A stretch of 31,122 nucleotides of DNA from IMG/VR virus record IMGVR_UViG_3300027906_000083, positions 1-31,122 of that record; one strand, 5' to 3'. Of this stretch, positions 1-27,046 are shown piece by piece (within the stretch, counting starts at the first letter, position 1; each line of letters starts with the position of its first letter). A program made the position numbers and the translations under genes. The notes under the pieces are model-generated. The model saw only the letters and a program-made list of their open reading frames with translations. It was not told where the DNA came from and searched no databases. This DNA comes from a virus.

Positions 1-341
1 TGTATTGGTACTAGTAAATCAAATCTACATTTAATTACAATGTCGTATCTAAACTTTTCGTTTAGTTCGTGTGTTCTTTTTAATCTATTTGATTGTTGTA
101 TGCTGTGTAGCATATTGCCACAGAAGCCTCTATGTTTCCAAGGAGTTTCAACAAATGATGCTACTGGGTGTAGCATTTCATTAAGTTTATCCCAATCCTC
201 TTGTGGCTGTCCATCGTCCCAGCTATGGTAAAAGTGATCAACGTTTTTTATATCTTCAAAGAATCTTAACAAGTAAGGAACAGCTCGTAAGCCGGTTCGT
301 AATTGTCCACTCCAACAAATTGCTACTCTAGGCAAGCTCAT
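1..341 (-). CDS. SGQLR-motif glycosyltransferase-like protein, C-terminus cut by window edge
   Basis: An open reading frame of about 113 codons enters from position 341 and runs off the left edge without a stop. The start is fixed by a strong ribosome binding site, AAAGGAGG at 354-347, five bases before the ATG. The start overlaps the end of the preceding gene by 14 bases. The protein begins MSLPRVAICWSGQLRTG and near residue 100 has YDIVIKCRFDLL. Both motifs align with the preceding gene (IAVCVSGQLRG and YDICVRMRYDN), so the two are tandem paralogues. The SGQLR N-terminus with a later D-containing motif is what I associate with uncharacterised glycosyltransferase-like proteins of marine phages. 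The function is inferred and no catalytic residue is proven. That it is a real gene is well supported; its activity is not. Confidence 0.75.
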   Translation of the reverse strand, partial: MSLPRVAICWSGQLRTGLRAVPYLLRFFEDIKNVDHFYHSWDDGQPQEDWDKLNEMLHPVASFVETPWKHRGFCGNMLHSIQQSNRLKRTHELNEKFRYDIVIKCRFDLLVPI

Positions 342-1059
342 GAGAACCTCCTTTGTAGTAATCTTTTTCACGTTTAAGTTTAATAGGCATATATGTCTGT
401 ACTGGTTTAATATTGTTAGCCTTCATATGAAATGCTAAAACGTGTTCAGGCCCGTATGCTTTATCGTCGCTTGTTTCAAACCATTGACGTTTGTATTTTG
501 GTATACAGCTATAAAAGTCACACATACGATCATAATCAAAACTTGTTGTAGCAAAGTAAACATCACTACATCTATACCTATGACCTTTATCAAAACTTTG
601 ATGTATAACGTGTGCTTCGCCCATCTTCATTTGTGATATGTTATAAGGACTTTCAACAAAGTTATCGTATCTCATTCTTACACATATATCATATTCCATA
701 GCATAGTCGTATTCATACTGTTGTTTTAAATGTCCTGCCATCATAACACCATAAAACTGGCTATGGTAGTTAGGGTCGAAGACTGCCCATTCTTTGTCTA
801 CTTCAAAGTCTATTGGATCTTCTATAAGCATCTTCTTAGGCTTTAGTATCTTTTTAATTTCGTTAAATTCTGTATCAGTAATGTCTTTAGCTTCGTGATC
901 TTTTAGTTCATGAGCAACGGCATTAGGAGCCGTTTTATTTGTCCAAGTGTGTAAGAAATAATCTATTTGACAATTATCAGGAAACATTTGTCCCCACGTT
1001 TCAACACACTCACGCCAAGGGCCTCTTAATTGTCCACTAACACATACAGCTATCTTCAT
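328..1059 (-). CDS. SGQLR-motif glycosyltransferase-like protein
   Basis: A 243-residue protein starting MKIAVCVSGQLRGPW. An in-frame ATG five codons upstream (1074) is possible and has GAGG before it, but only three bases away. The start at 1059 forms an ATGA overlap with the stop of the upstream gene, the junction type common in this operon, and aligns with the N-terminus of the downstream paralogue. Visible features are SGQLR at residues 8-12 and YDICVRMRYDN at 123-133, where the acidic residue may play the role of a DxD metal/nucleotide-sugar motif. No signal peptide or membrane segment is seen, so it is probably cytosolic. Its paralogue follows immediately with a 14-base overlap. The glycosyltransferase assignment rests on weak motif resemblance and on the surrounding glycosyltransferase-like genes. 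Confidence 0.7.
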   Translation of the reverse strand: MKIAVCVSGQLRGPWRECVETWGQMFPDNCQIDYFLHTWTNKTAPNAVAHELKDHEAKDITDTEFNEIKKILKPKKMLIEDPIDFEVDKEWAVFDPNYHSQFYGVMMAGHLKQQYEYDYAMEYDICVRMRYDNFVESPYNISQMKMGEAHVIHQSFDKGHRYRCSDVYFATTSFDYDRMCDFYSCIPKYKRQWFETSDDKAYGPEHVLAFHMKANNIKPVQTYMPIKLKREKDYYKGGSHELA

Positions 1060-1301
1060 GTTATCCAATTCCATATTCCTCGTAAAGCAAGTAACATATA
1101 CATTAATTCCATTAATGCTCGAGGTGTGTCTTTATCTTTTATGCCCATATAAATCCATATACTACAAGAGAACAAAGCAACGACCCAGCCCATCCATTGT
1201 ACAGCAGGATCACCACCACTTAGAATAAACGCTCCTACCATGGCTAGAATAAATCCTATCCATCGCCAGCCATCTATTTCTTTGTAGTATCTTATTTTCA
1301 T
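1056..1301 (-). CDS. Small membrane protein (DUF6552/PnuC-C-terminus-like)
   Basis: An 81-residue hydrophobic protein with about three predicted membrane segments: roughly residues 14-29, 33-52 and 62-80. The C-terminal half (GIKDKDTPRALMELMYM followed by a hydrophobic stretch ending GIWNWI) resembles the last helices of PnuC-type nicotinamide riboside transporters and a family of short proteins I recall as DUF6552. It is far too short for a full transporter. It overlaps its neighbour on each side by four bases (ATGA), so it is translationally coupled. I infer an inner-membrane location; the role is unknown. It may act together with the next membrane protein, whose gene lies directly upstream. 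Confidence 0.6.
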   Translation of the reverse strand: MKIRYYKEIDGWRWIGFILAMVGAFILSGGDPAVQWMGWVVALFSCSIWIYMGIKDKDTPRALMELMYMLLALRGIWNWIT

Positions 1302-1612
1302 AGTTCGTTTATTACCTGATCAAATACTTCTTCGCCTAGAATGTTATACAATAACACACCTAAGAATATAAACCATAATAACCAAAATACATAATAGCCT
1401 AGTTTAGTCCAACCTAATCCTAATATCTTGTATACTGTTTTCATAGGCAAATACTTTTCAAATAGTGTAGTAATATCCCATACAAATTTAAGCATAATAA
1501 TCCACATGAATGCTCTAAAGTATTTGTTCTTTATATCAGACACTTTAAAATTTGCCTGTGCTTCTTTTACTTTTTTATCGTGTGCTTTATATTTTTCCCA
1601 AAGTTTTTTCAT
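1298..1612 (-). CDS. Hypothetical two-helix membrane protein
   Basis: A 104-residue protein with a highly charged lysine-rich N-terminus (first 25 residues) and a helix around residues 33-50. A strongly hydrophobic segment follows at about 72-93 (YYVFWLLWFIFLGVLLYNIL), then a short acidic tail. Positive N-terminal charge suggests the N-terminus faces the cytoplasm. It is joined by four-base ATGA overlaps to the gene on each side. No family is recognised. Being coupled to a second small membrane protein suggests that the pair forms a membrane complex, which is only inference. Confidence 0.6.
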   Translation of the reverse strand: MKKLWEKYKAHDKKVKEAQANFKVSDIKNKYFRAFMWIIMLKFVWDITTLFEKYLPMKTVYKILGLGWTKLGYYVFWLLWFIFLGVLLYNILGEEVFDQVINEL

Positions 1613-2046
1613 TTTATTTGTCCTATGTAGTCACTACATATACCAGCAACGTTTTTATATTCTTCCATAGATTCTACTTTACCCATATGACAAACAATAC
1701 TCTTATTTGTATAGATATTGTTGTTGCTGTGTGTCCATATATAACCACTTGATGTTAATGTTACGTCATCTTCTTGATGCCAAAAAAAGTTTGGCACTTT
1801 ACTATCAATCATAAAATGTAATGCTTGTTCGTTTTTAGCATGGCACCATAAGCCGGGTATCTGTAACATTTTTTCATTTACAGAGTGACTAGGTCTATCG
1901 TGTCCTAAATATACCATACTGTTCTTTACCCAAACATCTATTTCTACATCATAACCTTCAGCTAACGCTTCGAAGATGTATACAGGGTGATTCTCTCTTT
2001 CAAGGTTAGGCCCGTTTATGTTTCCACGATGACTTATAAGTTTCAT
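1609..2046 (-). CDS. Short glycerophosphodiester phosphodiesterase-like protein
   Basis: A 145-residue protein with the start of the GDPD (PF03009-type) signature: SHRGN at residues 5-9, REN at 17-19, E35-I-D37 and LGHD with His49. In known GDPDs the His-Arg pair, the Glu/Asp metal ligands and the second His make up the catalytic centre, so the catalytic half looks intact. The protein is clearly shorter than typical GDPDs of about 240 residues or more, so a full TIM barrel is unlikely unless it is minimal or oligomeric. Possible substrates are glycerophosphodiesters or another phosphodiester, such as a teichoic-acid or glycan linkage. It overlaps the ferredoxin reductase gene upstream and the membrane protein gene downstream by four bases each. 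Similar short forms occur, to my recollection, in other marine phages. Confidence 0.75.
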   Translation of the reverse strand: MKLISHRGNINGPNLERENHPVYIFEALAEGYDVEIDVWVKNSMVYLGHDRPSHSVNEKMLQIPGLWCHAKNEQALHFMIDSKVPNFFWHQEDDVTLTSSGYIWTHSNNNIYTNKSIVCHMGKVESMEEYKNVAGICSDYIGQIK

Positions 2047-2750
2047 CCAACAAATGCCTTTTCCTGTACAAAGTTTCCTGCTGTTGACTTGTTACCTTCA
2101 TGCCATCCTCGTTCTGTTAGGTAGCTTTTCATTTCTGTATTAAAGGCAGTACTACCACACAGCATAACTTTATCTTTTTCTGGAGTAGCTTGTTCAAATA
2201 CTTTGCCTTCTTTGATTAAGTTTGTAATTCTTCCTGGTCTATAAAATTCTTCTCTAGTAACTGTTGGAATAAAAGTACAATTAGATTCCCTTAATATATT
2301 ATGGTAAGCATCTTGTTCTTGAATAGTTCTAGTAGTCCATGTAACATAAATTTTATCAAAGTCGCTGTACGTTGCTGGATCACGTAGCAAACTCATAAAA
2401 GGAGCAATACCTGTTCCAGTTGCCATCAACCAGAGGTTGCCACCTAGTTCAATGTTTTGTGTTATTAATGTTCCTGTAGTTTTGCCTCCTACATATAAGT
2501 CGTCACCAACTTTGATATGTTGTAGCTTACTTGTTAAAGGACCATCAGGTACTTTAATACTATAAAACTCTAGCTCTTCATCATACGGTCCACTACAAAT
2601 ACTGTAAGCTCGTTTAGGAGCAGAGTCATAATCACCCATGCCTACCATAACAAACTCGCCTGCTCTAAACCTAAAAGTTTTAGGTCTCTCTGTTGTAATT
2701 TTAAATAGTGAATCGGTGTAGTGTGTAACACCTGTTACTTTAACGATCAT
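2043..2750 (-). CDS. fpr: Ferredoxin/flavodoxin-NADP+ reductase (Fpr-type)
   Basis: A 235-residue FAD enzyme that exchanges electrons between NADPH and ferredoxin or flavodoxin. The FAD-binding RAYSICS motif is at residues 47-53. The NADP-binding GTGIAPF motif falls near residues 108-117 and a CGS motif lies near 195. The C-terminus FVQEKAFVG matches the bacterial Fpr subclass, whose last residues stack on FAD. The length fits the family. The start at 2750 is chosen because GGAGG at 2763-2759 lies eight bases upstream and the ATG overlaps the previous stop as ATGA. An upstream in-frame ATG at 2765 would place that site inside the gene. It sits among glycosyltransferase-like genes, and no ferredoxin or flavodoxin gene is visible in the window, so the partner must be host-encoded or elsewhere in the phage. 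Confidence 0.9.
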   Translation of the reverse strand: MIVKVTGVTHYTDSLFKITTERPKTFRFRAGEFVMVGMGDYDSAPKRAYSICSGPYDEELEFYSIKVPDGPLTSKLQHIKVGDDLYVGGKTTGTLITQNIELGGNLWLMATGTGIAPFMSLLRDPATYSDFDKIYVTWTTRTIQEQDAYHNILRESNCTFIPTVTREEFYRPGRITNLIKEGKVFEQATPEKDKVMLCGSTAFNTEMKSYLTERGWHEGNKSTAGNFVQEKAFVG

Positions 2751-3235
2751 AAAAAATGCCTCCATTTAATTTTTAGGTTAGCATATTCAATCGATTTCAT
2801 CTTAGATTTCCACTCCTCTATTAATGCCATATCCCATTGTGCTTGTTGGGTATTGTCCATATCCCACGGAGTAGGTTTAACCCAACTCCACTTTTTGTCT
2901 TTGTTTAGTCTGTTACTTAAACAGTCAAACCCTACAGTATGAACTTCAGTTGCTCCTTTGTCGACAGCATATTTCATTTGTAGTGTTCCAGTAATATCTT
3001 CTTCATCGGCTGTACTAGGTATAATAAAATTATCTCGAGTATTCCACTTGGTTATTATATCACCAGTATAGTCTTCGCTAATTGTTTCTGCTGGATCTTT
3101 ATCTGCTACAGCAATACAATCAACTTTAAATTCTCTGTATTGATACTTTGTACCAATTTTATAATCGTATGTATCGTTAACTATATGTAAGTTATTTCTT
3201 AAACTTACACCATTACCTATACATAGAATTTTCAT
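2747..3235 (-). CDS. Rossmann-like GNG protein, DUF115/sialyltransferase-like
   Basis: A 162-residue protein opening MKILCIGNGVSL, a beta strand plus glycine-rich loop at residues 7-12. It also has VDCIAVAD at 38-45 and EVHTVGFD at 97-104. This order (GNGxSL near the N-terminus, a second strand, then a VGFD-type strand) resembles the DUF115/MptE-like and GT42 sialyltransferase folds that bind CMP- or other nucleotide-linked substrates. The match is by pattern only. The protein lacks the C-terminal half of a full GT42 enzyme. The last 35 residues are rich in Trp and Lys. It overlaps both neighbours by four bases (ATGA), within a run of glycosyltransferase-like genes, which supports a role in sugar transfer or sugar-nucleotide binding. 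Confidence 0.6.
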   Translation of the reverse strand: MKILCIGNGVSLRNNLHIVNDTYDYKIGTKYQYREFKVDCIAVADKDPAETISEDYTGDIITKWNTRDNFIIPSTADEEDITGTLQMKYAVDKGATEVHTVGFDCLSNRLNKDKKWSWVKPTPWDMDNTQQAQWDMALIEEWKSKMKSIEYANLKIKWRHFL

Positions 3236-4152
3236 TTAGCATCTCTTTCCGTTAACATAATACCAAATCGTTTAGGATTAGTATAAACCATCTTAAACCA
3301 TCTACTAGCATCAGCGTCTAGGTCTGCTATTCTAAATTGTAAATCTCTTCTTAGTAACTGTCCGTATTCAGCAATAGCTTCATTTCGTAAAGCTACATTA
3401 TCAAACTTTTCTAATTGTTCTTTACACCAAGGTTGCATGAAATCATAATTAGCAATTTGTGTATGGTCCCAACGTTCAACGTTAACCATGTAAGTACTCA
3501 TTCTAGCACCTAGTATAGCCCAGTCGCCGTACGGCATATCTCTTCCTACACTACACCAAATAGCTAAACGGTGTAAGTTCTTCCAATGATTTTTTTCTAA
3601 GTATTCCCACTTGTCTGGAAGTATACCTTGATCTAAACTTAACTTAACACCTTCACGTACTCCTGCTCTAAAGGCTTGTTCTGGACTTCCGTTAACAACA
3701 ACATCACTCATAGTGTCTGCCATTTGGAAGTATGTAACCATCCAACAAAAGTCTACAGCGTCTTGTTCGTTTGTTGCTTTCTCATGACTTTCCATATTAG
3801 TAATGATGTGTTTTGGCCAAAGTTTAACACCACCGTTTCCATATGCCAAACCGTTGATAACATTATGTCCACACCAACTGAATACATAGTCCTTTTGTGT
3901 TTCATCATCTATTTCTAATTGTTCGTCAAAGAATTCTTCACGTACTGTATTATCGCCATCGATAGTAAACACTCTATCTGTTTCACTTATTTGCCCAGCT
4001 TTATTATGTGCCGCATCAAATCCTTTAACACCGTGTACACGTTTAGCCCATGGGCATTTACTTTTTAAATCAGCCCAGTTCTTTTCAGCATTGGGTTCAT
4101 CATACGAAATGTATACTACATCAAAATCGCTTACTTTATATCTATTAATCAT
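3232..4152 (-). CDS. Glycosyltransferase-like protein (GT-A type, DGD motif)
   Basis: A 306-residue protein. The N-terminus DVVYISYDEPNAEKNW (residues 11-26) and VFTIDGDNTV (61-70) are typical of a GT-A nucleotide-sugar-binding half: a strand, then a D-x-D metal site (D65-G-D67) at the end of a second core strand. A CGHNVINGLAYGNGGVKLW segment at about 94-112 could line the acceptor or sugar pocket. The C-terminal third is Trp-rich and helical. It overlaps the upstream gene by eight bases and the downstream gene by four. Donor and acceptor cannot be read from the sequence. I recall similar proteins in marine T4-like phages, often simply annotated as glycosyltransferases. Confidence 0.7.
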   Translation of the reverse strand: MINRYKVSDFDVVYISYDEPNAEKNWADLKSKCPWAKRVHGVKGFDAAHNKAGQISETDRVFTIDGDNTVREEFFDEQLEIDDETQKDYVFSWCGHNVINGLAYGNGGVKLWPKHIITNMESHEKATNEQDAVDFCWMVTYFQMADTMSDVVVNGSPEQAFRAGVREGVKLSLDQGILPDKWEYLEKNHWKNLHRLAIWCSVGRDMPYGDWAILGARMSTYMVNVERWDHTQIANYDFMQPWCKEQLEKFDNVALRNEAIAEYGQLLRRDLQFRIADLDADASRWFKMVYTNPKRFGIMLTERDAK

Positions 4153-4714
4153 TGACTGTCCTATAGCTTACTAACATCTCTAAATTATTTCTAGATATGA
4201 GAGATATTTGTTTTGTGTTAATGTATTCTGGTATATCGAACTCATGTTTTCCAGTTGATTGAAAATCAATTCTCTTTAACATTTTTGAATATTGCCCTTT
4301 GGGTGTAACCCAAATTGTTTTCTTATCAGGAAGACTACCTTTAGATTCTAGTTTTAATTTCCTAGTATCCACGTTAAATTCAAAATTAAATAAACGTTTA
4401 GGATTGTACTCATTGATAAGATGAACACGGTTGGAAGATGACATAGCATCTTTACTAATATTTATTAATTGAGGAGGACTCTGACTACAGTCTACCATCC
4501 ATGCTTTTAAGCTACCCTCAGATAGTTCTACATACCTTTCTTTGCTTACTCTAATAAACTTCTCATCTTTCATATCCTCAGATTCACGAGGACTTAATAA
4601 AAGTATTTGTCCAAAGTCGTTATGGTAAACCCTATGCTGACTAGCATTAGTAGTAGGGGTAACGTCCATACTAAACAGTTGATCAACTAGGGACTGTACA
4701 TCTTCTTGTTTCAT
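4145..4714 (-). CDS. Hypothetical protein in glycosyltransferase operon
   Basis: A 189-residue protein of unknown family. No signal peptide, membrane segment or recognisable catalytic motif is visible. The composition alternates short strands with polar loops (for example LFNFEFNVDTRKLKLES near residues 107-124 and KTIWVTPKGQYSKMLKRIDF near 131-150), suggesting a mostly beta fold. It may be a structural or accessory subunit rather than an enzyme. It starts in an ATGA overlap with the GT8-like gene upstream and ends with an eight-base overlap with the next glycosyltransferase-like gene, so it is expected to be made together with them. Function unknown. Confidence 0.6.
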   Translation of the reverse strand: MKQEDVQSLVDQLFSMDVTPTTNASQHRVYHNDFGQILLLSPRESEDMKDEKFIRVSKERYVELSEGSLKAWMVDCSQSPPQLINISKDAMSSSNRVHLINEYNPKRLFNFEFNVDTRKLKLESKGSLPDKKTIWVTPKGQYSKMLKRIDFQSTGKHEFDIPEYINTKQISLISRNNLEMLVSYRTVND

Positions 4715-5589
4715 TTTGCTAGTTCCTCTAATCGGTTAATATGGTCATCTGTAAGCCACTTCTTAACGTGATAATGTAATGGCTTTGTTTGTAAGTAATT
4801 GTTAATAAAGCATCTGCCTTCTTCGTCCCAACTATCCATTAAGTATTCTGTCCAATCTAAGTCTTGTACTTTATAATCTAATAGTCCTTGACATTTACTT
4901 TTTAAGTGTACAAAAGTAAAACTAGGAATAGGTTTAACTTTATCTTTCCATTCTAATAATCTAATAGCAAGTCCATAAACTTCATCTGTAGCAGGCCAAC
5001 GTACTTTATTGTGTCTAATATATTCCCAACTATAGTCGTCCCAATTTTTAAATATGTCTTCACATAAATTAAAAAACTTTCTTGCTTCTTTACTTTGTCT
5101 AAAATAAGTTAAGGCCGCGTATCCTCTGTATAAATTATTTCTATCAAACTGTTTACTATAATAACTTACATCTGCTTTATGTCCTTTAAACGTAATAGGA
5201 TTGTTACACATTTGTACAGGAAAGCGTCTAGCTAATATATTCCACCAGTCGCTGTGATCGTGTGTAAACAACATATCAGCATCTAAACAAATTGTTTCTT
5301 TGTAAGGTGTCATATGATATGCTTTCCACCAGTTATGTAATTTCCAGTTATGAGGTAATGCTTCGTCTGTCCAAGGAATAGTAACTACTTCATCAAATAC
5401 TTCTTTGTAGTTTTCTGGCAAACGTTTTTGATCTTCTTCTGTCATACCAACTGCTAGGTATGGTGCTTCTGTTTGACTTGCTTTTAAACTTAAAGCTAAA
5501 GCATAAGCCATTCGAGGATAGTCACCAAACTTCTCGCTGTATTGTGCTATTGTAAAAAAGCCTCGCTGTCTTTTATATTCTCTAGCCAT
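4711..5589 (-). CDS. GT8-like glycosyltransferase (DAD motif)
   Basis: A 292-residue protein. MTPYKETICLDADMLF (residues 93-108) has the hallmark D-x-D of family 8-like GT-A enzymes (D103-A-D105). It is preceded by helices carrying NWKLHNWWKAY, in the place where GT8 enzymes have K and Y/W residues ahead of the metal site. A later FVHLKSKCQG (about 226-235) may supply the conserved His-Lys that contacts the diphosphate. The upstream gene product has the same motif at the same residue number (LTPYDETILIDSDYLI), so the two are diverged tandem duplicates. It overlaps the upstream gene by eight bases and the downstream gene by four. Donor and acceptor are unknown. The class assignment is likely right. 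Confidence 0.75.
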   Translation of the reverse strand: MAREYKRQRGFFTIAQYSEKFGDYPRMAYALALSLKASQTEAPYLAVGMTEEDQKRLPENYKEVFDEVVTIPWTDEALPHNWKLHNWWKAYHMTPYKETICLDADMLFTHDHSDWWNILARRFPVQMCNNPITFKGHKADVSYYSKQFDRNNLYRGYAALTYFRQSKEARKFFNLCEDIFKNWDDYSWEYIRHNKVRWPATDEVYGLAIRLLEWKDKVKPIPSFTFVHLKSKCQGLLDYKVQDLDWTEYLMDSWDEEGRCFINNYLQTKPLHYHVKKWLTDDHINRLEELAK

Positions 5590-6406
5590 AAAGTTCTACA
5601 AACCTATCGTAATATTTTTCTATTTCAAATTTATTCAGTAAATGAACATTTGTATCTTTTAATCTTACAGGACCTTCGCCTGTGTTAAGTGTTATACTTC
5701 CTTTGTTTACTTCTATAATTGATTCAGGAGCATAGCTATTAATTTGTCTTGTAGGTAACGGTTTCATCCATCCATCAGTATGTCCGTTTACAATATGTGA
5801 TGCTATAGCGGCCGTTAAATCATTTCTATAAAATGTATAAGGACTGTTATACGTTGTAGTATAAAAGTCATTGTTTTCTTTTATTTCTTTTGCTACTGTA
5901 AACCATTGTTCTGTTTCTTCACACTTTCTAAAGTAACATACAGTAAACCAATGTATATTTGGGTAACCATCTGTAATAACTTGTTCGTAAATATGTTCTT
6001 GATGTTTAGCAGGAGTTCTGCTTGTTGTGTTCATTAGCATAGGTTCTACATTTTCCCATACATTGTTTAATAATGAATTTTGTATTAAGTAGTCGCTATC
6101 TATTAATATAGTTTCGTCATATGGTGTTAAGTCGTATGCTAATAGTCTATCTAAGTTATACCAAGTTATGTCTTGTCGTTTACCTTCAACGTAAACGCCT
6201 CTACCATTAACAATTTCTATATCATTTAAGAATATTACTTTATCCCAAACGTCACTAGTGTTGTCTTTATAATCTTCTTCAAATGTAATTAAGGAAATAG
6301 GAACATTAAGATAATGCTTGGCCATTAGCCCAGCCACCTCTGCCTGCTTTATATAATTAAACTGTTCGTTATTTTTGGCAAATATTAATAGGCCTTTAGT
6401 CGTCAT
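5582..6406 (-). CDS. GT8-like glycosyltransferase paralogue (DSD motif)
   Basis: A 274-residue protein with a GT-A style N-terminus (KGLLIFAKNNEQFNYIKQAE, residues 4-23) and LTPYDETILIDSDYLI at 93-108 (D103-S-D105 as the presumed metal site). IHWFTVCYFRKCEETEQWF at about 151-169 corresponds to the YRGYAALTYFR segment of the next gene product. NVHLLNKFEIEKYY near the C-terminus gives the possible C-terminal His-x-x-x-Lys. It is probably a nucleotide-sugar-dependent transferase in the cytosol. The start at 6406 overlaps the upstream gene by 11 bases. It is paired in tandem with a diverged copy, suggesting successive sugar additions to the same acceptor; that step is inference. Confidence 0.75.
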   Translation of the reverse strand: MTTKGLLIFAKNNEQFNYIKQAEVAGLMAKHYLNVPISLITFEEDYKDNTSDVWDKVIFLNDIEIVNGRGVYVEGKRQDITWYNLDRLLAYDLTPYDETILIDSDYLIQNSLLNNVWENVEPMLMNTTSRTPAKHQEHIYEQVITDGYPNIHWFTVCYFRKCEETEQWFTVAKEIKENNDFYTTTYNSPYTFYRNDLTAAIASHIVNGHTDGWMKPLPTRQINSYAPESIIEVNKGSITLNTGEGPVRLKDTNVHLLNKFEIEKYYDRFVELYG

Positions 6407-6746
6407 AAGTTAATATCTCTTCTACACTTCTTGCTGTTACTATTTTATTTTGTTCTGCTATAGCACGATTTTGTTCTTGAACGTAAGTATCTAATATAAG
6501 TTTCATAAAACTTTTAACTTCTATTTCGATTGGATTATTGTTTCTGTCGTCTATGACAGCTTTTTCGTAACCTTTACGTTCGAGTAAATCTAATAAGTTT
6601 AGTAGTGTAGGATTGATATTAAACATACCACCGTTATGCCCGATAGTAAGTCTTTCGTCTTTTAACTCTTTAAGTAATTCTAATTGACGATTTTGGACTT
6701 GTCTGTAATTTGCTTGTTTGAATAGATCTGTTGTTTCTTGAGTCAT
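6396..6746 (-). CDS. Small hypothetical protein, first gene of accessory operon
   Basis: A 116-residue protein starting MTQETTDLFKQ. An in-frame ATG at 6800 would add 18 residues, but that start lies at the transcription start expected from the promoter just upstream, and a GAAGGA ribosome binding site (6757-6752) sits five bases before the ATG at 6746. I therefore prefer 6746. The protein is mostly helical and charged, with ERLTIGHNGGMFNINPTLLNLL in the centre (about residues 31-52). It shows no membrane segment. The C-terminus EEILTYDD overlaps the next gene by 11 bases. No family is recognised with confidence. As the promoter-proximal gene it could be expressed most strongly. Confidence 0.65.
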   Translation of the reverse strand: MTQETTDLFKQANYRQVQNRQLELLKELKDERLTIGHNGGMFNINPTLLNLLDLLERKGYEKAVIDDRNNNPIEIEVKSFMKLILDTYVQEQNRAIAEQNKIVTARSVEEILTYDD

Positions 6747-6768
6747 CGATTTCCTTCTTCTATAAACT

Positions 6769-6807
6769 AAAAATAGCGAGTTGTGATTTAACACATACAC
6801 TCGCTAT
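6769..6807 (-). terminator. Hairpin with T-run overlapping the promoter
   Basis: Minus-strand inverted repeat ATAGCGAGT (6807-6799) and ACTCGCTAT (6781-6773) with a 17-base loop. The loop itself contains TGTG/CACA that can extend the stem, and TTTTT follows at 6773-6769. It has the form of a rho-independent terminator for transcripts coming from the fibre gene ending at 6845. Its 5' arm overlaps the -10 element and lies almost entirely upstream of the predicted transcription start. Alternatively the dyad is a repressor operator. Confidence 0.6.
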
Positions 6808-6834
6808 TATATAGTCTTTGGATTAGGGTGTCAA
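6806..6834 (-). promoter_or_regulatory. Perfect-consensus sigma-70-type promoter
   Basis: On the minus strand TTGACA (6834-6829) and TATAAT (6811-6806) are separated by exactly 17 bases, the ideal housekeeping sigma-70 promoter. Transcription should begin near 6800-6798, giving a leader of about 53 bases before the ATG at 6746. It would drive the accessory operon (6746 to 1 and beyond) with host RNA polymerase, separately from the late structural genes. Confidence 0.85.
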
Positions 6835-6844
6835 GTATTTTTTA

Positions 6845-7777
6845 TTAGAATGATTCCGTAGTAGCAAACCCAGGTGTAGCAATAGTGTACACACTTGATT
6901 TTCTTACTGTAAAGTCAGCCTTTGTACCCGATTCAACTGTATCAACAGCACTTGGTGCCGTTGGAGTATGTTGATCGTCTAAAGTAATTTGGAAAGTAAC
7001 AACCGCTCCACTTACTTTAGCTTGAACTAAAACATCGTTGGCACTATAAGCACCTGAACCAATGTTAGTTCCTTCAAAAATTGTTTGGTAAGATCCATTT
7101 AAATCATAAAATCCAACCGTTGTACTTGGTGTTCCGCCTGAACCTGTTCTTGTAGTTCCAGTATAACCCATTTTGATAGTTCCTATTGAAGTATCAAAAA
7201 TAGCGTCCCAGTTCTGTGACTGTGTAGTTGTAGCTGTTGGTTGGTCCAAAGTAATATGGAGTTCACCACCAGTATTAAAAAAGTATCTAGCCGCGGCCGC
7301 ATCAGCAAATGTAACTGTTACATCTGTATTAATAGCCGCCGTGCCTACTTCACCACCCCAAGCACTACCTCTTGTTGAAGTGTGTTGTGATGCTAATGTA
7401 GTTTGTTGACCTGAGTCAACGTTTTGGTAATTTGTATCAATGTTAGTGATTGCTGTACTTAAATCGTATGAGTACGAAGCACCACCAATTGTTTGTGATC
7501 CGTCAAAAGCGTGGATCGTTCCTGAACTTGCTGGATACCCTGTATCAGAAGCACCAGGAATAGCTACTGTAGTACCTTGGTGGTTTGCCGCATTGTTAAC
7601 AGCGCCTAATAATGCTGTCCAATGTGCCGCTGTAATCTGGTCCGTAGACGAAACTGTAGACAAGTCTGTTTGTCCATATCCCTTACTGCCAGATCCTGCA
7701 CCAATTACTCCATTTACGGTGCTTACAAAAGAATTGTAATCACTCGCTGTAATTGTATTACTCGATGAATATGCCAT
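6845..7777 (-). CDS. Tail-fibre-like structural protein
   Basis: A 310-residue protein of low complexity rich in Ser, Thr, Gly and Ala, with no cysteine or signal peptide. The N-terminus (MAYSSSNTITASDYNSFVSTVNGVI, then GYGQTDLSTV and TAAHWTALLGAVNNAANHQG to about residue 70) is a block I recall at the start of structural proteins in marine phages. The middle (about 155-235) reads as beta strands (AARYFFNTGGELHITLDQ and QNWDAIFDTSIGTIKMGYTG). The C-terminus has QAKVSGAVVTFQITLDDQHT. It follows another fibre-like gene by 54 bases; AAGGGA lies about 10 bases upstream of the ATG. It is the last structural gene before the accessory operon. It is probably a tail-fibre tip or decoration protein; no precise family is assigned. 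Confidence 0.65.
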   Translation of the reverse strand: MAYSSSNTITASDYNSFVSTVNGVIGAGSGSKGYGQTDLSTVSSTDQITAAHWTALLGAVNNAANHQGTTVAIPGASDTGYPASSGTIHAFDGSQTIGGASYSYDLSTAITNIDTNYQNVDSGQQTTLASQHTSTRGSAWGGEVGTAAINTDVTVTFADAAAARYFFNTGGELHITLDQPTATTTQSQNWDAIFDTSIGTIKMGYTGTTRTGSGGTPSTTVGFYDLNGSYQTIFEGTNIGSGAYSANDVLVQAKVSGAVVTFQITLDDQHTPTAPSAVDTVESGTKADFTVRKSSVYTIATPGFATTESF

Positions 7778-7816
7778 TTTTTATTTCCCTTAATCCGTTT
7801 TAATAATTAATAATTC

Positions 7817-7840
7817 ATTAATTAGCTTACACTAATTAAT
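7817..7840 (-). terminator. AT-rich stem-loop at end of fibre gene
   Basis: Nine-base inverted repeat ATTAATTAG / CTAATTAAT with a six-base loop, overlapping the stop codon of the 490-aa fibre gene. It is followed only by mixed A/T rather than a clear T-run, so it may stall polymerase, protect the mRNA 3' end, or be chance in AT-rich DNA. Confidence 0.3.
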
Positions 7841-9304
7841 TATCACAAAAGCTTCAACAGTACCCACATTATGAGTATTTTTGTCTTTCAACGCTCTGCC
7901 TATACAATTGAAATAGTTTGCTTCGCCTTCGAGTGCGGATCTAGCTATTCCATTACCAGCACTTACAAGTCTGTCACCTTTAGTAACTTTACCTGTAACT
8001 CTGACTGGAACTCTTCCACTTACTGCTACAGCAGGATGACTGGCGTTGCTTCCTGCTTTAGAATTCATTAAGTAAGCTGGTCTTGTTGAAACAACACCAA
8101 ACACTTTGTTACTTAATTCATCGTTAACTTTTGTAATTTCTTCTGCTCCACCTAAAGCAACAATAGTACCTGGTTCAATATGACTGTCAGCCGCAAATCT
8201 CTCTGCCAAGTCAGCGTATTGTGCCGATGTACTTTGCCCTTCAAATGTTGTAGCAAATACTTGATTAAACTTTTTACTTGTACTACCTAAGTCTCTAGTG
8301 TTGTTAGCGTCTGGTACCAAGTCACCTTGTATACTAGCACTACCATCTCTTAATACAGCACTACCACTAGCTGATAATTGAGCGTCTACATATTGTTTAG
8401 TCGCCGCTCCAAGTGTATTTGTTGGATCACCTGCTAAAACTAATTTAGCTGTAGCACCATCAAATGTTGCTACTGTAGTTGGTGTTCCACCATCGTTAAC
8501 TTGAATAATTAAGTCGCCGTCTGATGTTTGATTAGCTATTGTTACGTCACTTCCTGATACTGAAATTTTAGCATCACTGTCAGCACCAACTGTAAGACCT
8601 GTATCATTTGATATACCTAATGTTCCTGAAGTAGTATCATTAGTGTTTGATCTTAAGTAATTTGCCGCCGCTACGCCACCTAAAGCATCTGAGTCTTCAG
8701 CTGTTCCATGGAACTTTGCTGTACCCAATGTGGAGTTAACATTGTAACCTTGCTTAATAGTAGCAAAGCCTGATATTGAACTGTTAGGTGTAAACGTTGA
8801 GTCTTTTGAAATTATAGCAACAATAGTGTCACTTACATACATTTGAACTACAACGTGATCCGTAGCACCTGTATCTGTGACTGTAGTAATAACTGGACCA
8901 GATTGTCCAGAGCCTTGTGTAAACGCTGGACCAATTAGTGTCCATCCGCTACCATTGTAAACTTTTAACTGAGTGTTTGTAGTGTCCCACCACAAGTCAC
9001 CAGTTACACCACTTGCTGGTGTAGAACCAGAAGCAGTTGAACTTGAAACTGTTTTAAATGTAGCACCAGTATAAACTTTAAGTAAACTGTTGGTGCTATC
9101 CCACCATAACTGCCCTGCTAAAGGACTGCTTGGTGCTGATGTATTAGAGAAATTCTCTAGTAATTTTACGAAGTTCTCATTTAATAGCTCGCCGTAACCA
9201 CTATAGTTCTTACCAATCATTATTAGATCAGTTGTATTATCTATAGTACCGTCACTGACAGTAGCTAGTAAGGCTCCGCTTGTTTTGTTAACTGTATATG
9301 CCAT
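7832..9304 (-). CDS. Tail fibre protein with C-terminal YADLAE-type domain
   Basis: A 490-residue fibre-like protein. The N-terminal domain (IDNTTDLIMIGKNYSGYGELLNENFVKLLENF, split across about residues 21-52) is very common in marine myoviruses. It is followed by two copies of a repeat, GQLWWDSTNSLLKVYTG (about 64-80) and GDLWWDTTNTQLKVYNG (about 101-117). A beta-rich shaft follows, including LAGDPTNTLGAATKQYVDAQL near 290-310, a typical fibre coiled segment. The C-terminus starts NTRDLGSTSKKFNQVFATTFEG, then YADLAERF and GTIVALGG, and continues to the end (about 340-490). This resembles C-terminal fibre domains found in many phages and sometimes linked to chaperone or autoproteolytic functions. 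An AATAAATA motif (9330-9323) and GGAG seven bases before the ATG precede it. Confidence 0.8.
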   Translation of the reverse strand: MAYTVNKTSGALLATVSDGTIDNTTDLIMIGKNYSGYGELLNENFVKLLENFSNTSAPSSPLAGQLWWDSTNSLLKVYTGATFKTVSSSTASGSTPASGVTGDLWWDTTNTQLKVYNGSGWTLIGPAFTQGSGQSGPVITTVTDTGATDHVVVQMYVSDTIVAIISKDSTFTPNSSISGFATIKQGYNVNSTLGTAKFHGTAEDSDALGGVAAANYLRSNTNDTTSGTLGISNDTGLTVGADSDAKISVSGSDVTIANQTSDGDLIIQVNDGGTPTTVATFDGATAKLVLAGDPTNTLGAATKQYVDAQLSASGSAVLRDGSASIQGDLVPDANNTRDLGSTSKKFNQVFATTFEGQSTSAQYADLAERFAADSHIEPGTIVALGGAEEITKVNDELSNKVFGVVSTRPAYLMNSKAGSNASHPAVAVSGRVPVRVTGKVTKGDRLVSAGNGIARSALEGEANYFNCIGRALKDKNTHNVGTVEAFVIIN

Positions 9305-10013: not shown

Positions 10014-13000
10014 TTAGCTCTTTATATAAGTTGGTTTTTCTATTAAGAACTTTGCTTGTAAAGTATTTGAATTTTGTAGGCCAAGTCCGTCACTAGGATT
10101 TCCACCTGATACTTTATACCAAGTTTTGTCATGTGCTGACGGTATTTCTTGTCTTCCACTCATATCTACTACTTTACTTCCTTTAGAGTGAGTTGCTAGT
10201 ACACCTGTTCCTCTAGTTCCTCTTCTAAGTCTTGATAATTTCTTAGTAGTAAGGTCTAGTTCCAAGTATTCAATCCTCTCACCATTTATATACACTACAC
10301 CAGGTATAGCTTTATCTATATCTGGCACTGGTAATCTATCTGGATCAGAAACTGTAATCTCTGAATCAGTAGATTTTAGTTCTGCTCCTAGTTCGGTTGT
10401 ATTATCTTTTGCTAATCTGTAATAATAATTTTTATCAAATAAATCTTTAAATATTCTAAATCCTAAAGCTGGTTTAATAATTTCTTCTGTAAACTGAGTT
10501 ATTATTGTAATATCACTAGCATTCAATGTCTCAGAAAAAACTAATTTGCCACCTTCAAGTTTATAGTCTTGGTTTGGTAACATTTTAACACCGTTCTTAG
10601 TAACCCATAAGTATGAAACATCTACTGGTGTTGTGAAAACATTAAATTCTGCTATGTTAACAACACTGGCCGTTACAGCATCAAAGCTAACTGTTTCATA
10701 TCCTCTAACGTCAAATCCAATATTAGTTGTAATAGCATTACTACTTCCACCTTTAAATGTTTCAGTTGTCATTTTTAAGTTATCATGATTATTAAATGTA
10801 GTAACACAAACGGAATCATTACCTGTCCAAGTTCCGCCTGTTATTGTAAGCGAAGTTGCTGATGATAAAATATATTCAGCATTTGTAACATCTGCTACAT
10901 CAATTTTAGAATTAGCCGGAGGTGCCTCATCTAACTTAACAGCTTTTATTGTACTATCAGATCCTTCAACAATACTATAGTTTGTAGTTTGTACACCATT
11001 AATATAAACTCTAGTATTTGCTTTTACTAAAGTAGAATGGTCTATGTCTGCTGTTGTAGTTAAGTCATATGTCGCTGTACTTGAATCATTTGTTAAGTAT
11101 GTAAACACTGGTGGACGTAATCTTTGTCCGTTAAGTTCAACAATAATTTTATCTACTCTTGCTAGGTCGGTGTCTGATCCATCAGCTAATGTAAATGTTC
11201 TTGTGCTATCATTAACAGTATATTCGTCAACAGTAACTTTACTATATGTTCTTGTTGAACTTTCAGGAACATCAAAAGCATGGAAGTGAACAAGGTCACC
11301 GTTACCTAAAGATGCTACTGCCGGTGTCCAAGTTGTTGTAGTTCCACCATCACTGCTTGATAATGTTCCTGCTGTTGCATGACCACCGTTAACTATAATA
11401 AATGTTTGTTTGTTTTCTACAAGACTATAAGAAACAGGTAATACTACTTCTGTTTCTCCACCACTTGCTCTAAATTCATAATCTAATAATAGTTTGTCAC
11501 CTGTAACACCAAAAGCTGTTATAGAAATAATTTCGTTATTAGCTGGTGCTGTGTTAAGTCTAATAACACCATCTGCCCAAAGTACAGTATAATTACTTGC
11601 TGATATTCTACCTGATGTTTTCGAGTACACAAAAAGCTCTTGTACAGATGAGTGGAATAGATCTGGACTTAATCCAGTAGTGGATACATTACCAAATTTA
11701 AATACTTTATTTGATCCGTCACCTTTGTAATTAATAACACTTATAGGCATACCTAAAGCACCGTCGCCATCAGCATCTCTACTCGATGCTGTGAATACGT
11801 TAATGTTTAGTGTATCAAATACTCTGCCTGGTACAAACTCTTCTGGAGCGTGAGAACTGTAAGCATCAACAAATTTGCTACTACCATCAACAATAATATC
11901 TTCTGGTCTTAGTCCTAATTGTGTATCATCAAACTTACTTTGCATATCTAAGTCAATGTTTTTATTGCTTAATACAAATCTTCCATCTTTGTCTACTTCA
12001 AAGTTATCAAACTCTTGTGAGTCAAATCCACCTTTGTCCATTCCTGGATTAGCTGTAAACAATGGACCTTCAACTTTAGTTCCTGGGTAAGTTATACCTT
12101 TAAATATTTGTCCTAAGTCTTTTCCGTCTTGTCCAGCTTTTGGAATATAGTATGCCATAGTTCTATCCATAGCATTGTTAAATGTAGCATCTTCTTTAAC
12201 AGTTAATTTAGTACTGTCAAATGTTGTTCCTGAAGTAAAGGCTTCATTAACTGTGTATGCTTCGCCGTTATGTTGAATTATATCTGCTGTTGTATATTCA
12301 GTACTAGCTTTCCATTCTTTAACTGATGAACTGTATCTAATTCTATCAAACTTAATAGTTTCTTTAATTTTTCTAGTTTGCTCGTTTTTCATTTGAGCAT
12401 GAAGTATACCATCTAACGTTGGACTACCACCGTCTACTGTTATTGTTGGTGCTTTTAAGTAGCCACTTCCTTTGTTTGTCATTGTTACTTCATTAATATG
12501 ATTGTCAATAATATCACAAGTAGCTGTCGCTGTAATACCACCTGTAACTAAAGTACCGTCTGGATTCTTAGGTGCTTCAATAGTAATAGTAGGTGCTGTT
12601 TGATATCCGAAACCCCATTTACTAATAGTTAAGTCGTCAATATAGTAACTGTGATTTTCTTTCCACATTTTATATTGATTACTGTTGTTGATGTTTGTAA
12701 TATCATGACTTTGTTCTTTGTTAGGCGACCTAAATGTTTTAGTAACTTTATCATAACTACTTGGTAAGTCAAAGTCAGTAGTGTCACCTTCGTAAGTTTC
12801 TAGTTTATTATAACCTAATACATATTCTCTAACATTAGAGTGATAAGGTTTTACTTCGTTAATATATTCTTTAACAAACTCTTGGTTGTCTCTTTGGTAA
12901 GTTGGAAACTGATCTAATGCTCTTAATTTATGTTTAACATTTACAAAACTAGTTTTGAATATCCAATCAACATAAGGTTGTTCTTGTAAAGCAAATCTTA

Positions 13001-16000
13001 ATAGAACAAACATTAATTTATTGTGTTCATCTTCTAGTGGGCCAACTAGTATTTGTTCCTTAACTGTTTCAACAATTCTTCTTGTTTCAATTTGTGGTTC
13101 TAAGTCAAGTAAATTAAAGTCGTAACCATCAGCATCATAACCTAAGTTAGAAGTAATGTAATCGTATACAGAAGTATCAAATTCTATTGTACCGCCTTTT
13201 TGTCCTATAAGGTCGTACTGGGTATCTTTCTTACAATATAGTGACCATTGAGTACCTGTTGTAATTTTAATAATACTGCCATCAATCATTTCAGTTTTGT
13301 AAACATCATTGAAGTTATCAAATCTATAATCAATATTTGTATCAACTGAATATCCTGTATCGTACCAATCTATAAGTTTCCAAAACTTTTTAGTATCGTA
13401 ACTTTGTGATCTAGTTCTTAACCAAGTTCTGTCGCCTTGTAATGTGTGTATGCTCCAACGACCGTTAATATCTGAATCTGTTTCAACTAGTACTTTATAT
13501 CCCGGATCGTGTAATGCTTCTCTAACATAACCTAGTTCAGTAAATGTTAAAACTTTTTCATCATATAATCCTGATGTTGATTTTGGTAACGGCTCTTCGC
13601 TGTTTAACAATGTAAAGTCTAAGTTGTCTGATATGTTATATTTCTTAATAACATTGTTAACATAAGATGTATATTCTTTCATAGCAAGATATCTATTCAT
13701 GAATACACTTTGTCTTGGTCTAATTTTAATTCCGTATCTGTCTCCAGCACTTAATTTAATGTCTGGAACTTTATTACCTTCTGAGTCAGCACCTGCTAAA
13801 CTATCTTTAATTTTTTCAAACAGTTCACTTGGTATAGCACTCTTAGGATTGTTTTCTTGTACTAATGACCACTCTGTGTGTAATGATTTATCATTTGGTT
13901 TTCTATCGTAATCAACAGCTAATACAACATTGTCAGCTTCTAAATACTGATCACAATTTGCTAATGCTATTGAATTTTTGCCTGTAAACATAGCAAATGA
14001 TTTTTTATTTGTTATAGGGTCTACAATTAAATTATAAATCTCACCTACACTTAAATTTTTACTAGGGTGTGCTTCAACTATTGAAGTTGCCCAGAAATAG
14101 TATTTGGTTTGTAATTGTTTTGTAACATCATTTATACTTGTTATTTCTACATAAGCACTATCGCCATACTTTGCTGTTCCGCCTGTGTATGAGCTAGGCT
14201 TAACTGATGATTCAACCCATTGACAAATTTGTATCTTACTACCTGGGAATACTCCTCCCCAGAACGTACTCTTGTAATCGTCATTGCCTTGTTCGTATTG
14301 TATAAATTTAACTTTACTTAAATCCCACCAAATTTGTCCTACCCTTGTAGGTTGCCAATAGTTACTACCATCGTTAACACTCTGAGTTCCATCTGTATAA
14401 TTGTAGATAGCAGGATCAAATGATGTTTTAAAATCTATTTCTTGTTCAGCTTCGCCTATAATTTTTCCTTTTAACGGATCAATATAATCTAAGTAAGTTA
14501 ATATTTTATTTGTAGCGTTATTGTATAAGAATACTTTGTTAATTCTATCTACGTCAACTAGTGTTTCTTCTTTTTCGTCGATAGCAAATAGCTCGCCTGT
14601 TTTATTATAATGAATTACTCTACCAGTATCAGTTGTTCCAAATGAATGATCGTCTGACGGAGAACCTACAAACACACTATCTTTACAAATAGCTATAGAA
14701 TAACCAAATTGGTCGTTAACATCTAAGCTACTTGTATATAAACTGTCTGCTTCTACATATCCTGATGCTAGTTTTTGGAATATATGAACACTACCTGTAA
14801 AAGTTTTTTCAGAAGTAAATCTTGTAGCATTTCCATCTAGCTCTGTTTTCTTAGCATCAAAGTTTGTTCGTACAGTTGTTGATCCTGTAGGACAGCCAAC
14901 TACTACTTGTTTACCTTCTCTACTAATTTCAATAACTTCACCAAATTTAAAGTTAGAAGAATCTTTGTTTAATTCTATTTTTTTAGAACCTGCAAAAGCG
15001 TGTAGGTTTAAGTCTTTGTGTAAGCTACCTGTTTGATCACCTGTTATGTGAATACTTCCTTTACGAGGATTAGAAGATGTTATTGTTAAAACACCATTAC
15101 TACCTGTTGCTGTGATACCAGGAATATTCTTATCGTTAATATCTTTTATAATTTCGTCTAAGTCAGTACCTGTTGCTGTAACTCTGTAACCATTTATGTA
15201 CATTGATTGGCCAGTTGTATAAGACCCTATTGTTCTTGTAAGGTAGTTTACATTATTTTCCCATTTTTCTGTACGTTCAAATATTTCTATTATACCTGAG
15301 TTTTCGTTAAGTCCTTCCTTTTCAGGAACGCCAACAAATATTGATCCAGCTTCTTCGTCAATTCTAACAGCACTTGAACCAAAGTTTCCTTCAGCCTGTG
15401 GCCAGTTAGGTGCTAAACTATGTAGTGGTAAAAAGTTCTCAGTCCAAACTGTTATCTCGTCACCTTTAGCTGGTGCTGTAGTAAACGATATAGTAGAAGT
15501 GCCGTCAACTTTAGCGTAGTTAATTGTGCTATCATCATTTTCTCTACCTACTAATACTCCGTTTTGATATACATTGTTGTTTACCATTCCAATGTCACTT
15601 GTTGTTACTTGGAAGTCTTTAGTAGTTCCATCACCAGTAAATGCTTCATAGTGTCTTGCATATACTTCAACACTTCCCATTCTTGTAACAGAATCAGCAC
15701 CTACTACACTTTCATTTGGATTTCCAATTACAATGTATTTTCCACAAGCATCAATATCTAATGAATTACCAAAGCCGGCTATTGTGCCTGTTATTGAATG
15801 ATTCATTACCCAGCCATGTACATCACTAACACTAATTGATTTTCCTACAGCTGGTGCTACAGTAAACGTAATAGTTCTAGTTGTACCATTGTATGAATAA
15901 TCTCTGTTAGCTATCATGTCAACACCTTGTATTCTAACATACAATTCTTCTGCTTTATTAAGATGGCGATATGAGGCATCTAATATAAATGATGTTGTAC

Positions 16001-19000
16001 TTCCATCACCAATAAATTCTTGTTGTAATGATTCTGCGTTTGTGCCTTGAGCTCTATGGTAAACAAATACTTTTTTGTCGCCTGGAGCTGAAACTATACA
16101 CCATTGTCCGTTAGCACTCATTTTAACTTTAGTACCAAATTTAGCCGATGATGTTAATCCTGTCGGTTGATCTAATGTTCCTGCTAAGAAGCTACCACCT
16201 TTTGTATCTCTATAATAAAATAAAACAGCACCTTTACCGCTATTAGTATTAGGAGCACCTACAGCCACCCATCTTGTAGTGTCTGACCATTCTTCGTATT
16301 TTAATTGTCCTGTAGTTCTAGGTTCGTATATTCCTGTAGAAACACTTTTACCTAATTCACTTATGTTTGTTGCTGAACTTTGTATAACACCAAATTGTAC
16401 TAAATCTTTTGGTTGTGGTGTGTATACATGAAACTTATTAAGTTCTGGCTGACCAACTACTAACCATTGTCCGTTATATTCAGAACACATAGCATCACCG
16501 AATCGTTCCCCTTGAACAGGTGCCAATGGTGCTAATGTTTGTTGTTGATCATATGATGTGTTTCTTTTAACTACATACCATCTTTTATCTTCGTCTTCGT
16601 CGACATAAAACTTGTCATTTAGTTGCCAGCCTAATTTAGGCTTACTAACATCTTCTGTATTTCTGTATCTAATACTAATAAATTTTAATATTGAAGCATC
16701 GCCGGCCTCTGTTGCTACTTCTTTAGTACCGTCTGTAGTAAACGAGTTTACATTTGGTACTGTTTTTACAACATATACACCATCACGTTTAGTACTATAA
16801 TTTTTAATTGCTACAATATCGCCAACACTTAATGAATGTGTATCACTAGTAGTCCAAGTATATGTACTTCCGTCTTGTCCGCCATCACAGTTTATAACAC
16901 GTTCACCTGTTGAATCTAAATACTTCATATCCCATTCGTCGTCAAGGTCTTCAGCTACCCATAAAGTGTAGCCTACTTTCATGTCTTTAACCATTGGCGA
17001 TAACGTTGCCGCATCAGAGCCATAAAATAACGTAGCGTCAGCGTCTATTAATTTAGGATATCCAGCATTTGGATATAAATTATCGTAAAATGTTTTTTCA
17101 TTGTGTCCTTGTACAAAACTTTTTCTTGTAGGAACCCAGTCATATGTAACATCACTAGGTGCTTTAAATAATTCGTCTGTAGTAAATTCAGTTTTACTTT
17201 CTATAGATGTTTTATCTTGTGTAGAGTTAACTGTTTTTATTACTTGAGGATTGTCTTTAAATCCTTCCTCGTCTAATTTAATTTCAACTCTAGAGTTAAC
17301 ATCAACAGCACCGTACTCAGCTTGTCTAATAGCCCATTCTTCATAGAAAGAAATATCACTACTAATCTGATCAAACTTACTTCTAACAAGTTTGTCAACA
17401 GCATTCTTTGTACCTTTTTCTTGTAGCATACCTTGATAAAATTTAACCTGTGAAACATCATCAAGTCCTATTTTATTAAAGTAACTTCTGTTCTGATAAC
17501 CAATAGAACCTTTGCCGTACTTGTCAGTTTCACTTTCTAAATTAACAGCATTAACATCGTAGAAGCTTTCAAAGTTTCTGCCTAACGTATCAAAGTTAGG
17601 AAGTAGTCCTATCTTAAATGAATCTGTTTGTGTCCAGTGTTCGTATACAAAAAGGTTTCCACTTGTATGATTAGATACTGATGTATAATATGATCCTTTG
17701 TAAGTAACAATGTCTCCTCTAACGTAATCATTGTTTGCTAACCAACCAGGAACATCACCGTCATTGTAAATAAATCCTTGTGCTGTTAAACTTCCGTCCC
17801 AGCCACCTGTTTTAAATCCAACAAGTCTAATTCTAAACTGTCTGTTACCTAAGCTAGGTTGATAAATGATATCGTTAAATCGTGTTATGTTATTAAAAAC
17901 TAAAGCGTGTTCGTATTCAACAAGTTTAGTATTAACAAAGTATATTCCACCATTGTCAGAATTTGGATAAAGTTCAAACTCGCCATCTTGTCTGCTCATC
18001 TTATAAGTGCCAGGACGCATCGGCTCGTAGTTTTGATTTAATACGTTTGTTCTTGCTTGACTATTTGATAAAGCGTCAGCAATACCAACATTTGTTAAAC
18101 ATCTAATTCTATTAGCACTTGGACTTATAGTAATAACTGATCCTTGCAACCAACCTTGTCTTGACCAATGTAAAAATTCCTTAACACTCATTAACCAGTT
18201 TGCTACAATTTTCTGTGAACCAAAATCTTCCATTCGGTTATCAAAGTCATAACCTTGTTTTGTTAACCAACGTTGATAAGCAAAGAAAAAGTCAGCGACA
18301 TCTTGCTTGTTAGTAAACGTATGTCCGTATGGTATTTCTACTACTTTTGTGTCGTCATATTCTTCGTATTCTGTAACACGATCCTGACCAACATCATGAA
18401 TTTTAAAGTTGCCATTTTTAATTGGAACGTATGTTTTAAACTTTGGATTGTTTAAGTCGTAACCATATACAGTAAACCCTGATGTATTAAGTTGTACAAT
18501 AACACCACTATAAGGTAATGACTTAATTGGTCCTGTCTTATGAAGATGAATACTGTAATCCTCATCGGGAATATAAACTGAATTACTTGTACTTGTAGGT
18601 GATACTTGTTCAGCTAATACTTTAATTAACTTTTTATCTGTATACCCTTGTATCTTATGTACAAGTTTAATGTCTAATGTTTTTAAAACGTTTTGTAAGT
18701 TTGTAGTAACATTAATATTTTGCCAACGTAAGTATTCAGCAACAAAGTTACCACAGCCTTCGTGTCTGTCAGTTGGTATATCAACTTTTAAATCTTTAGG
18801 TTGTTGTCTTTGGTTTGTAGACAACATTACAATTTGGTCAATTAATTTATTTCTAACCATTTGACTCTTATTGAATAGTTGACTAAAATACTCTGACGGT
18901 CTAATTAAACTGAATAAGTGTTGTAAACTAAATGAGTAACTACTTGAATTTCTCCAGGCCATTTCAGCTGGACTACCATCGCCAAACTTCCATGAATGAC

Positions 19001-26578: not shown

Positions 26579-27005
26579 TTGCTGATGCTCCTGTATTTTC
26601 TGATCCTGAATTATTATTGTTTAATACTGTATTATATGAAATATTCGCCGCTTCTTGATTAAATGTAAGTAACATATCTTCAACCTGGTTAGTAGGAATG
26701 TATTTAAGTGTTATAGTAACTTGAATTCCATGTTCGTATGAAGAAGGAACTACTTCCAATATTTCAAGTCTAGGATCTGATCCAGCTATAGCTGTAATAT
26801 TGTCTACTATTAAACCATGGGCTTCTTCAGTAAATGGGTCAAATAACATATCCCATATTACACAACCAAAGTCGGGTCGCATAACTCTTTCACCTTTTCT
26901 AACGTTAAGATTGTTAATTAAGTCTTGTTTAACTAATCTATAGTCGGTTAAGGTAACTGAAGCAAAATCACTTCCATTAGTTGAAAATCCTTTGTATATA
27001 CTCAT
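26568..27005 (-). CDS. 25: Baseplate wedge protein gp25
   Basis: A 145-residue GPW/gp25-family protein. It starts MSIYKGFSTNG and contains LVKQDLINNLNVRKGERVMRP, then DFGCVIWDMLFDPFTEEAH (about residues 24-65), the family signature. In T4, gp25 with gp6 and gp53 forms the wedge core, and gp25 starts sheath assembly. I prefer the start at 27005, which matches the usual gp25 N-terminus; an ATG at 27026 adds seven residues. Neither has a ribosome binding site. GATAAATA (27018-27011) ends five bases before this ATG, so the mRNA may be leaderless. The gene overlaps gp6 by 11 bases and, like gp6, ends SGY. Confidence 0.92.
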   Translation of the reverse strand: MSIYKGFSTNGSDFASVTLTDYRLVKQDLINNLNVRKGERVMRPDFGCVIWDMLFDPFTEEAHGLIVDNITAIAGSDPRLEILEVVPSSYEHGIQVTITLKYIPTNQVEDMLLTFNQEAANISYNTVLNNNNSGSENTGASASGY

Positions 27006-27018
27006 ATAAATATTTATC
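27005..27018. promoter_or_regulatory. Palindromic two-way late promoter element
   Basis: Plus strand TATAAATA (27005-27012) and minus strand GATAAATA (27018-27011) overlap around the 12-base perfect palindrome ATAAATATTTAT (27006-27017). Both fit the T4/cyanophage late consensus. The plus copy lies 34 bases before the radical SAM ATG. The minus copy lies five bases before the gp25 ATG. The two genes are divergent, so both need a promoter here. Confidence 0.6.
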
Positions 27019-27046
27019 GTAATCATTAAGTGAGTATATAATTTGT

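Follow-up and report, generated by a model that had tools for sequence, protein, structure and literature searches.

A consensus promoter nested in a terminator-like hairpin between the virion genes and a second gene run of a large marine-type phage

How can genes that lie directly downstream of virion genes, on the same strand, be transcribed from their own promoter and yet be kept out of read-through from upstream? The question is raised by a 31,122-nucleotide stretch of virus DNA (the window), a 31-kb virus record with T4-superfamily baseplate genes whose source is a large marine-type phage; the nearest annotated phages, Agrobacterium phage Atu_ph07 among them, are of the jumbo type and share about 36% protein identity. 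Virion genes on the minus strand reach down to 6845, a second gene run on the same strand starts with g116, and between the two lies an element in which a promoter and a terminator-like stem together make up a 66-base part. A nucleotide search of annotated phages with positions 5000-9000 of the window gave no match, the g116 protein had no match in annotated phages either, and searches of g116 against Pfam and PHROGs returned nothing. A mechanically assigned GTG start of g116 at 6800 was rejected; the true start is the ATG at 6746. Further upstream, positions 10014-23036 form one uninterrupted reading frame for 4340 aa between a baseplate wedge gene and tail-fibre-like genes. The features are, in the direction of minus-strand transcription:

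27011-27018, minus strand: GATAAATA, resembling a late promoter, ahead of the gp25-like baseplate gene; read-through RNA could plausibly start here
6845-7777, minus strand: last gene before the element, 310 aa, ending with its stop codon roughly 10 bases ahead of the -35
6829-6834, minus strand: -35 hexamer TTGACA, part of a 12/12 consensus pair, conserved in the five close relatives (L001-L005)
6806-6811, minus strand: -10 hexamer TATAAT after a 17-nt spacer, kept in L001-L005; its three final bases form the outer end of the hairpin 5' arm
6799-6808, minus strand: hairpin 5' arm AATAGCGAGT, which shares bases with both the -10 and the predicted start and has compensatory changes in relatives
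6798-6800, minus strand: predicted transcription start, 6-8 nt after the -10 by the spacing rule; each candidate start was folded
6782-6798, minus strand: loop of 17 nt with a small inner helix (TGTG/CACA), differing in length among relatives
6772-6781, minus strand: hairpin 3' arm ACTCGCTATT, the partner of 6808-6799
6769-6773, minus strand: T run directly 3' of the stem, with 5-8 T in close relatives
6396-6746, minus strand: g116, 116 aa, the first downstream gene, with ATG at 6746 and a Shine-Dalgarno-like GAAGGA at 6757-6752
328-6406, minus strand: remainder of the downstream gene run, gene order kept in relatives
5582-6406 and 4711-5589, minus strand: two proteins with DxD motifs like those of glycosyltransferases (by eye)
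2043-2765, minus strand: oxidoreductase with NAD/FAD-binding domains, part of the downstream run

The minus strand from 6834 to 6806 reads TTGACA-17-TATAAT; no other site in the window matches 12/12, and chance alone would give 0.16. An earlier note on this DNA had described this promoter as sharing bases with the 5' arm of a terminator-like stem, and this observation is confirmed: A6808 and A6807 of the -10 hexamer are paired. The T run and the stem are present as described, but the stem is one pair longer than the proposed 6807-6799 / 6781-6773: it consists of 10 perfect base pairs (6808-6799 / 6781-6772) with 17 nt between the arms, and the first two T of the TTTTT at 6773-6769 are the partners of the two -10 bases. 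The element thus has the two hallmarks of an intrinsic terminator, a stable G-C containing hairpin and a U tract behind it; counting against termination, the T run is only 5 long and the base of the stem is A-T rich. No T run flanks the stem on the opposite (plus) strand, indicating that a terminator at this site would work in one direction only. The 3' arm ends at 6772, leaving the Shine-Dalgarno at 6757-6752 outside the hairpin, so that the ribosome site is not covered.

Chance is a poor explanation of the overlap: the window has a single copy of the dyad and 100 shuffles have none, and perfect stems of at least 9 bp with a T-rich tail number one on the minus strand versus 0.05 per shuffled strand. 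Read-through RNA can form the hairpin, as the earlier note had argued, with a computed fold of -16.3 kcal/mol (z -5.1, no shuffle equally good). A transcript from the promoter itself, beginning at the predicted 6800-6798, would lack eight or more of the ten 5'-arm bases, again in line with that note; starts placed 6-9 nt after the -10 give RNAs that fold at -2.9 to -4.7 kcal/mol, and the stem beside the T run cannot be closed in RNA from the predicted starts.

Five IMG/VR records (L001-L005) encode g116 at 84-88% identity, and in all five the 12/12 promoter, the stem and a run of 5-8 T recur between the same genes, with unchanged gene order on both sides of the element and with inter-arm lengths of 11, 14 and 16 nt, compared with 17 in the window. 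Their read-through RNAs fold at -14.3 to -17.9 kcal/mol versus 0 to -5.7 for their own starts, with the exception of L002, whose own RNA reaches -9.3 kcal/mol at one candidate start. In the largest relatives, of which 204 and 120 kb were covered, none of the other consensus promoters carries such a stem, and the nested element is single among the 10 and 6 consensus promoters and the 28 and 11 hairpins of G001 and G005, respectively. When IMG/VR was scanned for the dyad, 93 stretches were found, with the promoter context only in relatives; a scan for TTGACA-TATAAT-AGCGAG found 53 stretches, with the second arm only in relatives.

A search by a downstream gene yielded 54 loci with much the same gene order. 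In L270-272, L273, L274, L321, L325 and L331, g116 is about 50% identical and a sigma70-like promoter has its -10 touching or overlapping a hairpin arm, but the arms are ATAGTAGAGT or ATAGTAAGGG in place of ATAGCGAGT; L270-272, L321, L325 and L331 combine their new arm sequences with 4-6 T. Altogether, 10 distinct sequences have kept promoter and stem together at this junction, with compensatory changes; loss of the stem from relatives that keep the promoter had been set beforehand as the outcome that would speak against the element, and it was not seen. The T run (4-8) follows the stem directly in 8 of the 10, is interrupted in L273 and is absent in L274. Covariation was scored on arms aligned without their loops, because MAFFT mis-registered the stems of distant relatives; the register is therefore chosen by pairing, and there are only three arm families. 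Six of the ten pairs have changed on both sides and 98% of cells are paired (ten pairs, five distinct rows), a score reached by 0 of 500 shuffles and destroyed when the partner was slid by 1-3 columns. A layout kept by relatives with different sequences points to selection, and we consider it likely that the element is a one-way transcription insulator with its own promoter that blocks read-through only.

Three other explanations have to be weighed. The hairpin may serve mainly RNA stability or processing, capping the 3' ends of upstream mRNAs or forming a 5' hairpin on downstream ones, with weak or no intrinsic termination. This would fit the stem without T run in L274, the own transcripts of L273 and L274, which retain a (shortened) 5' hairpin of -6 to -10 kcal/mol, and the strong hairpins without T run beside a TGGTATAAT-like promoter in L280 and L287-L289; yet it is unlikely, given the T run directly behind the stem in most sequences of the class and the almost structureless own transcript of the window group. 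The dyad could also be a DNA operator, bound by a dimeric repressor over the -10 and start site, with the T run being incidental. The position over -10 and start is the classical one and the closest relatives share identical arms, but clades have different arm sequences at one and the same position, the T run is on one strand only and each examined genome has a single copy of the dyad. Moreover, the distance between the arms takes the values 3, 5, 9, 11, 14, 16 and 17 nt over relatives and window and varies even within the AGTAGAGT family (3, 5, 9 and 16 nt, the L270 value being read off the sequence), unlike the constant half-sites at constant spacing of a rigid operator. The operator, which the earlier note had allowed for, is weakened by these spacings and we regard it as quite improbable. 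Finally, an ordinary promoter and an ordinary terminator might overlap in a crowded gap without any interplay, and while gaps in these genomes are short and the layout is rare (one clear case in RB49, none convincing in scans of T4, S-PM2, HTVC008M and KVP40), its retention in 10 distinct sequences despite changed arms and loop, and its recovery as stem plus T tail in just one of 20,000 local shuffles of the 76 bases, make such an accident highly implausible.

A one-way insulator needs transcription that arrives from upstream. A gp55-type late sigma (phrog_234) was identified in relatives (4 of 4 records, E about 1e-25); in T4, this type of sigma acts together with the host core polymerase. 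The motifs GATAAATA and GTAAATAC are enriched about 19-22 fold in intergenic regions (G001) and are also found upstream of virion genes; CGATAAATA precedes the gp25-like gene in the window and in two relatives and is also found near the 490-aa gene in two relatives, where the window has a degenerate version. With a late sigma in relatives and late-promoter-like motifs upstream, late RNA should read into the element, and we infer that it likely does. The search for the sliding clamp phrog_223 had no match in relatives, but it matched nothing anywhere and is hence uninformative. An imperfect inverted repeat (arms 26995-27014 / 27021-27040) lies between the gp25-like gene and a divergent plus-strand gene (27047-28264) with a radical-SAM-like CxxxCxxC motif (by eye). 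The repeat region, 26995-27047, holds the minus-strand GATAAATA (27018) and the window's sole TATAAATA on the plus strand (27005-27012), and the pair are perhaps back-to-back late promoters. TATAAATA occurs once on both strands of the window versus 5.8 times expected from shuffles, as if stray late-promoter motifs were avoided.

The insulator would operate as follows, with promoter activity, start site, termination and timing all deduced from sequence. RNA from the upstream virion genes, probably begun at late (gp55-type) promoters, would contain both arms, fold the hairpin and stop at the T run; a polymerase starting at the sigma70-type promoter would begin inside or after the 5' arm, be unable to form the hairpin and continue into g116 and the following genes. 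The earlier note's interpretation, a separation of late structural from host-polymerase transcription, is supported in its outline, but since gp55-type sigma works with the host core polymerase in T4, the split would be between sigma classes and transcript origins rather than between host and phage polymerases. If this is true, incoming transcription is stopped and new transcription is started at one place by simple cis logic. The proposed purpose, to keep the g116 genes out of late read-through expression, is directly testable with reporters.

Other relatives are built differently at this junction. A plain hairpin with a T run, without clear promoter overlap, is present in L306 and L276, while in L317, L310 and L318 terminator-like hairpins are followed by a separate promoter-like site. 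In L287-L289, a late-like TAATAAATA is followed by a strong hairpin and then by a GGTATAAT promoter-like site (TGGTATAAT in L287 and L288); L280 has the strong hairpin and the promoter and lacks the late-like motif. The hairpin upstream of g116 in L280 and L287-L289 ends immediately before the GGTATAAT promoter-like site, and its arms belong to the ACAAACCCTAG family in three of these four loci and are unrelated in L289. In L336-L338, the 3' arm of the hairpin is the g116 Shine-Dalgarno itself, so the ribosome site is covered as in a T4 gene e-type leader; a TAGAAT -10 lies in the loop, z is about -6 and the own RNA is almost unstructured. This conserved hairpin (AACTCCACTT / AAGTGGAGTT, about 60 bases before g116) may be a translation switch of the gene e kind that includes a sigma70-like promoter. 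L264, L292, L296 and L302 have no clear hairpin at this junction. L283, L284 and L295 have weak dyads with a shuffle z close to 0, which were left out of the count. A common thread at the junction would be that arriving RNA is kept from expressing g116 while the local promoter is spared. Whether a discriminator of read-through has been selected at the junction in a wide group of jumbo-type phages is close to an even question, and we lean slightly against it; the means would differ by lineage, being a promoter nested in a terminator, a terminator and promoter in tandem, or a promoter nested in a ribosome-site hairpin. The junction would then be a natural series of different solutions to one problem.

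Among known systems, the composite promoter-terminator cassettes of T4-type phages called PeSL (promoter early stem-loop), reportedly described by Arbiol 2010 and Comeau 2014 (both cited in PMC4503421), are one of the two closest. The window element has the strong sigma70-type promoter and the fused stem-loop terminator between genes, but not the many dispersed copies (there is one nested element per examined genome, the window being a 31-kb fragment) and not the hyperplastic, shuffled region, as gene order is the same on both sides in the five close relatives. On account of copy number and shuffling, it is not classified as a PeSL, though it would work like a nested one. Promoter-terminator pairs in RB49 are mostly tandem with the terminator first (six cases, one of them weak-looking), and at least one is truly nested: at 3201-3150 on the minus strand, a 12/12 promoter lies inside a terminator with an 11-bp stem, and its own RNA likewise lacks the 5' arm. 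There, the 5' arm is in the spacer between -35 and -10, whereas in the window it starts in or just after the -10. This RB49 element is present in 58 phage records, and the GEC-3S record annotates the overlapping promoter and terminator. At many of its early promoters (about 2800, 36960, 38200, 39100 and 42330), RB49 (L182) also has 7-10 bp dyads whose arms lie on either side of the -10 and which lack a T run (e.g. GGGAGTAT-GCTATA-ATACTCCC); they look like a separate recurring motif. The parts of the window element are ordinary; their nested, covarying and position-fixed arrangement is unusual. Its logic is that of T4 gene e (also soc, 49 and I-TevI), where an inhibitory RNA hairpin has its 5' strand encoded within promoter DNA: long upstream RNA folds the hairpin, and RNA from local late promoters lacks the 5' strand and escapes (PMC3014915). 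Gene e has a late local promoter and a hairpin that keeps early read-through RNA from being translated. The window has a sigma70-type promoter, and its hairpin is closed off by a T run at a distance from the ribosome site. In both, the own RNA is without one strand of the hairpin, with a different effector and the opposite timing.
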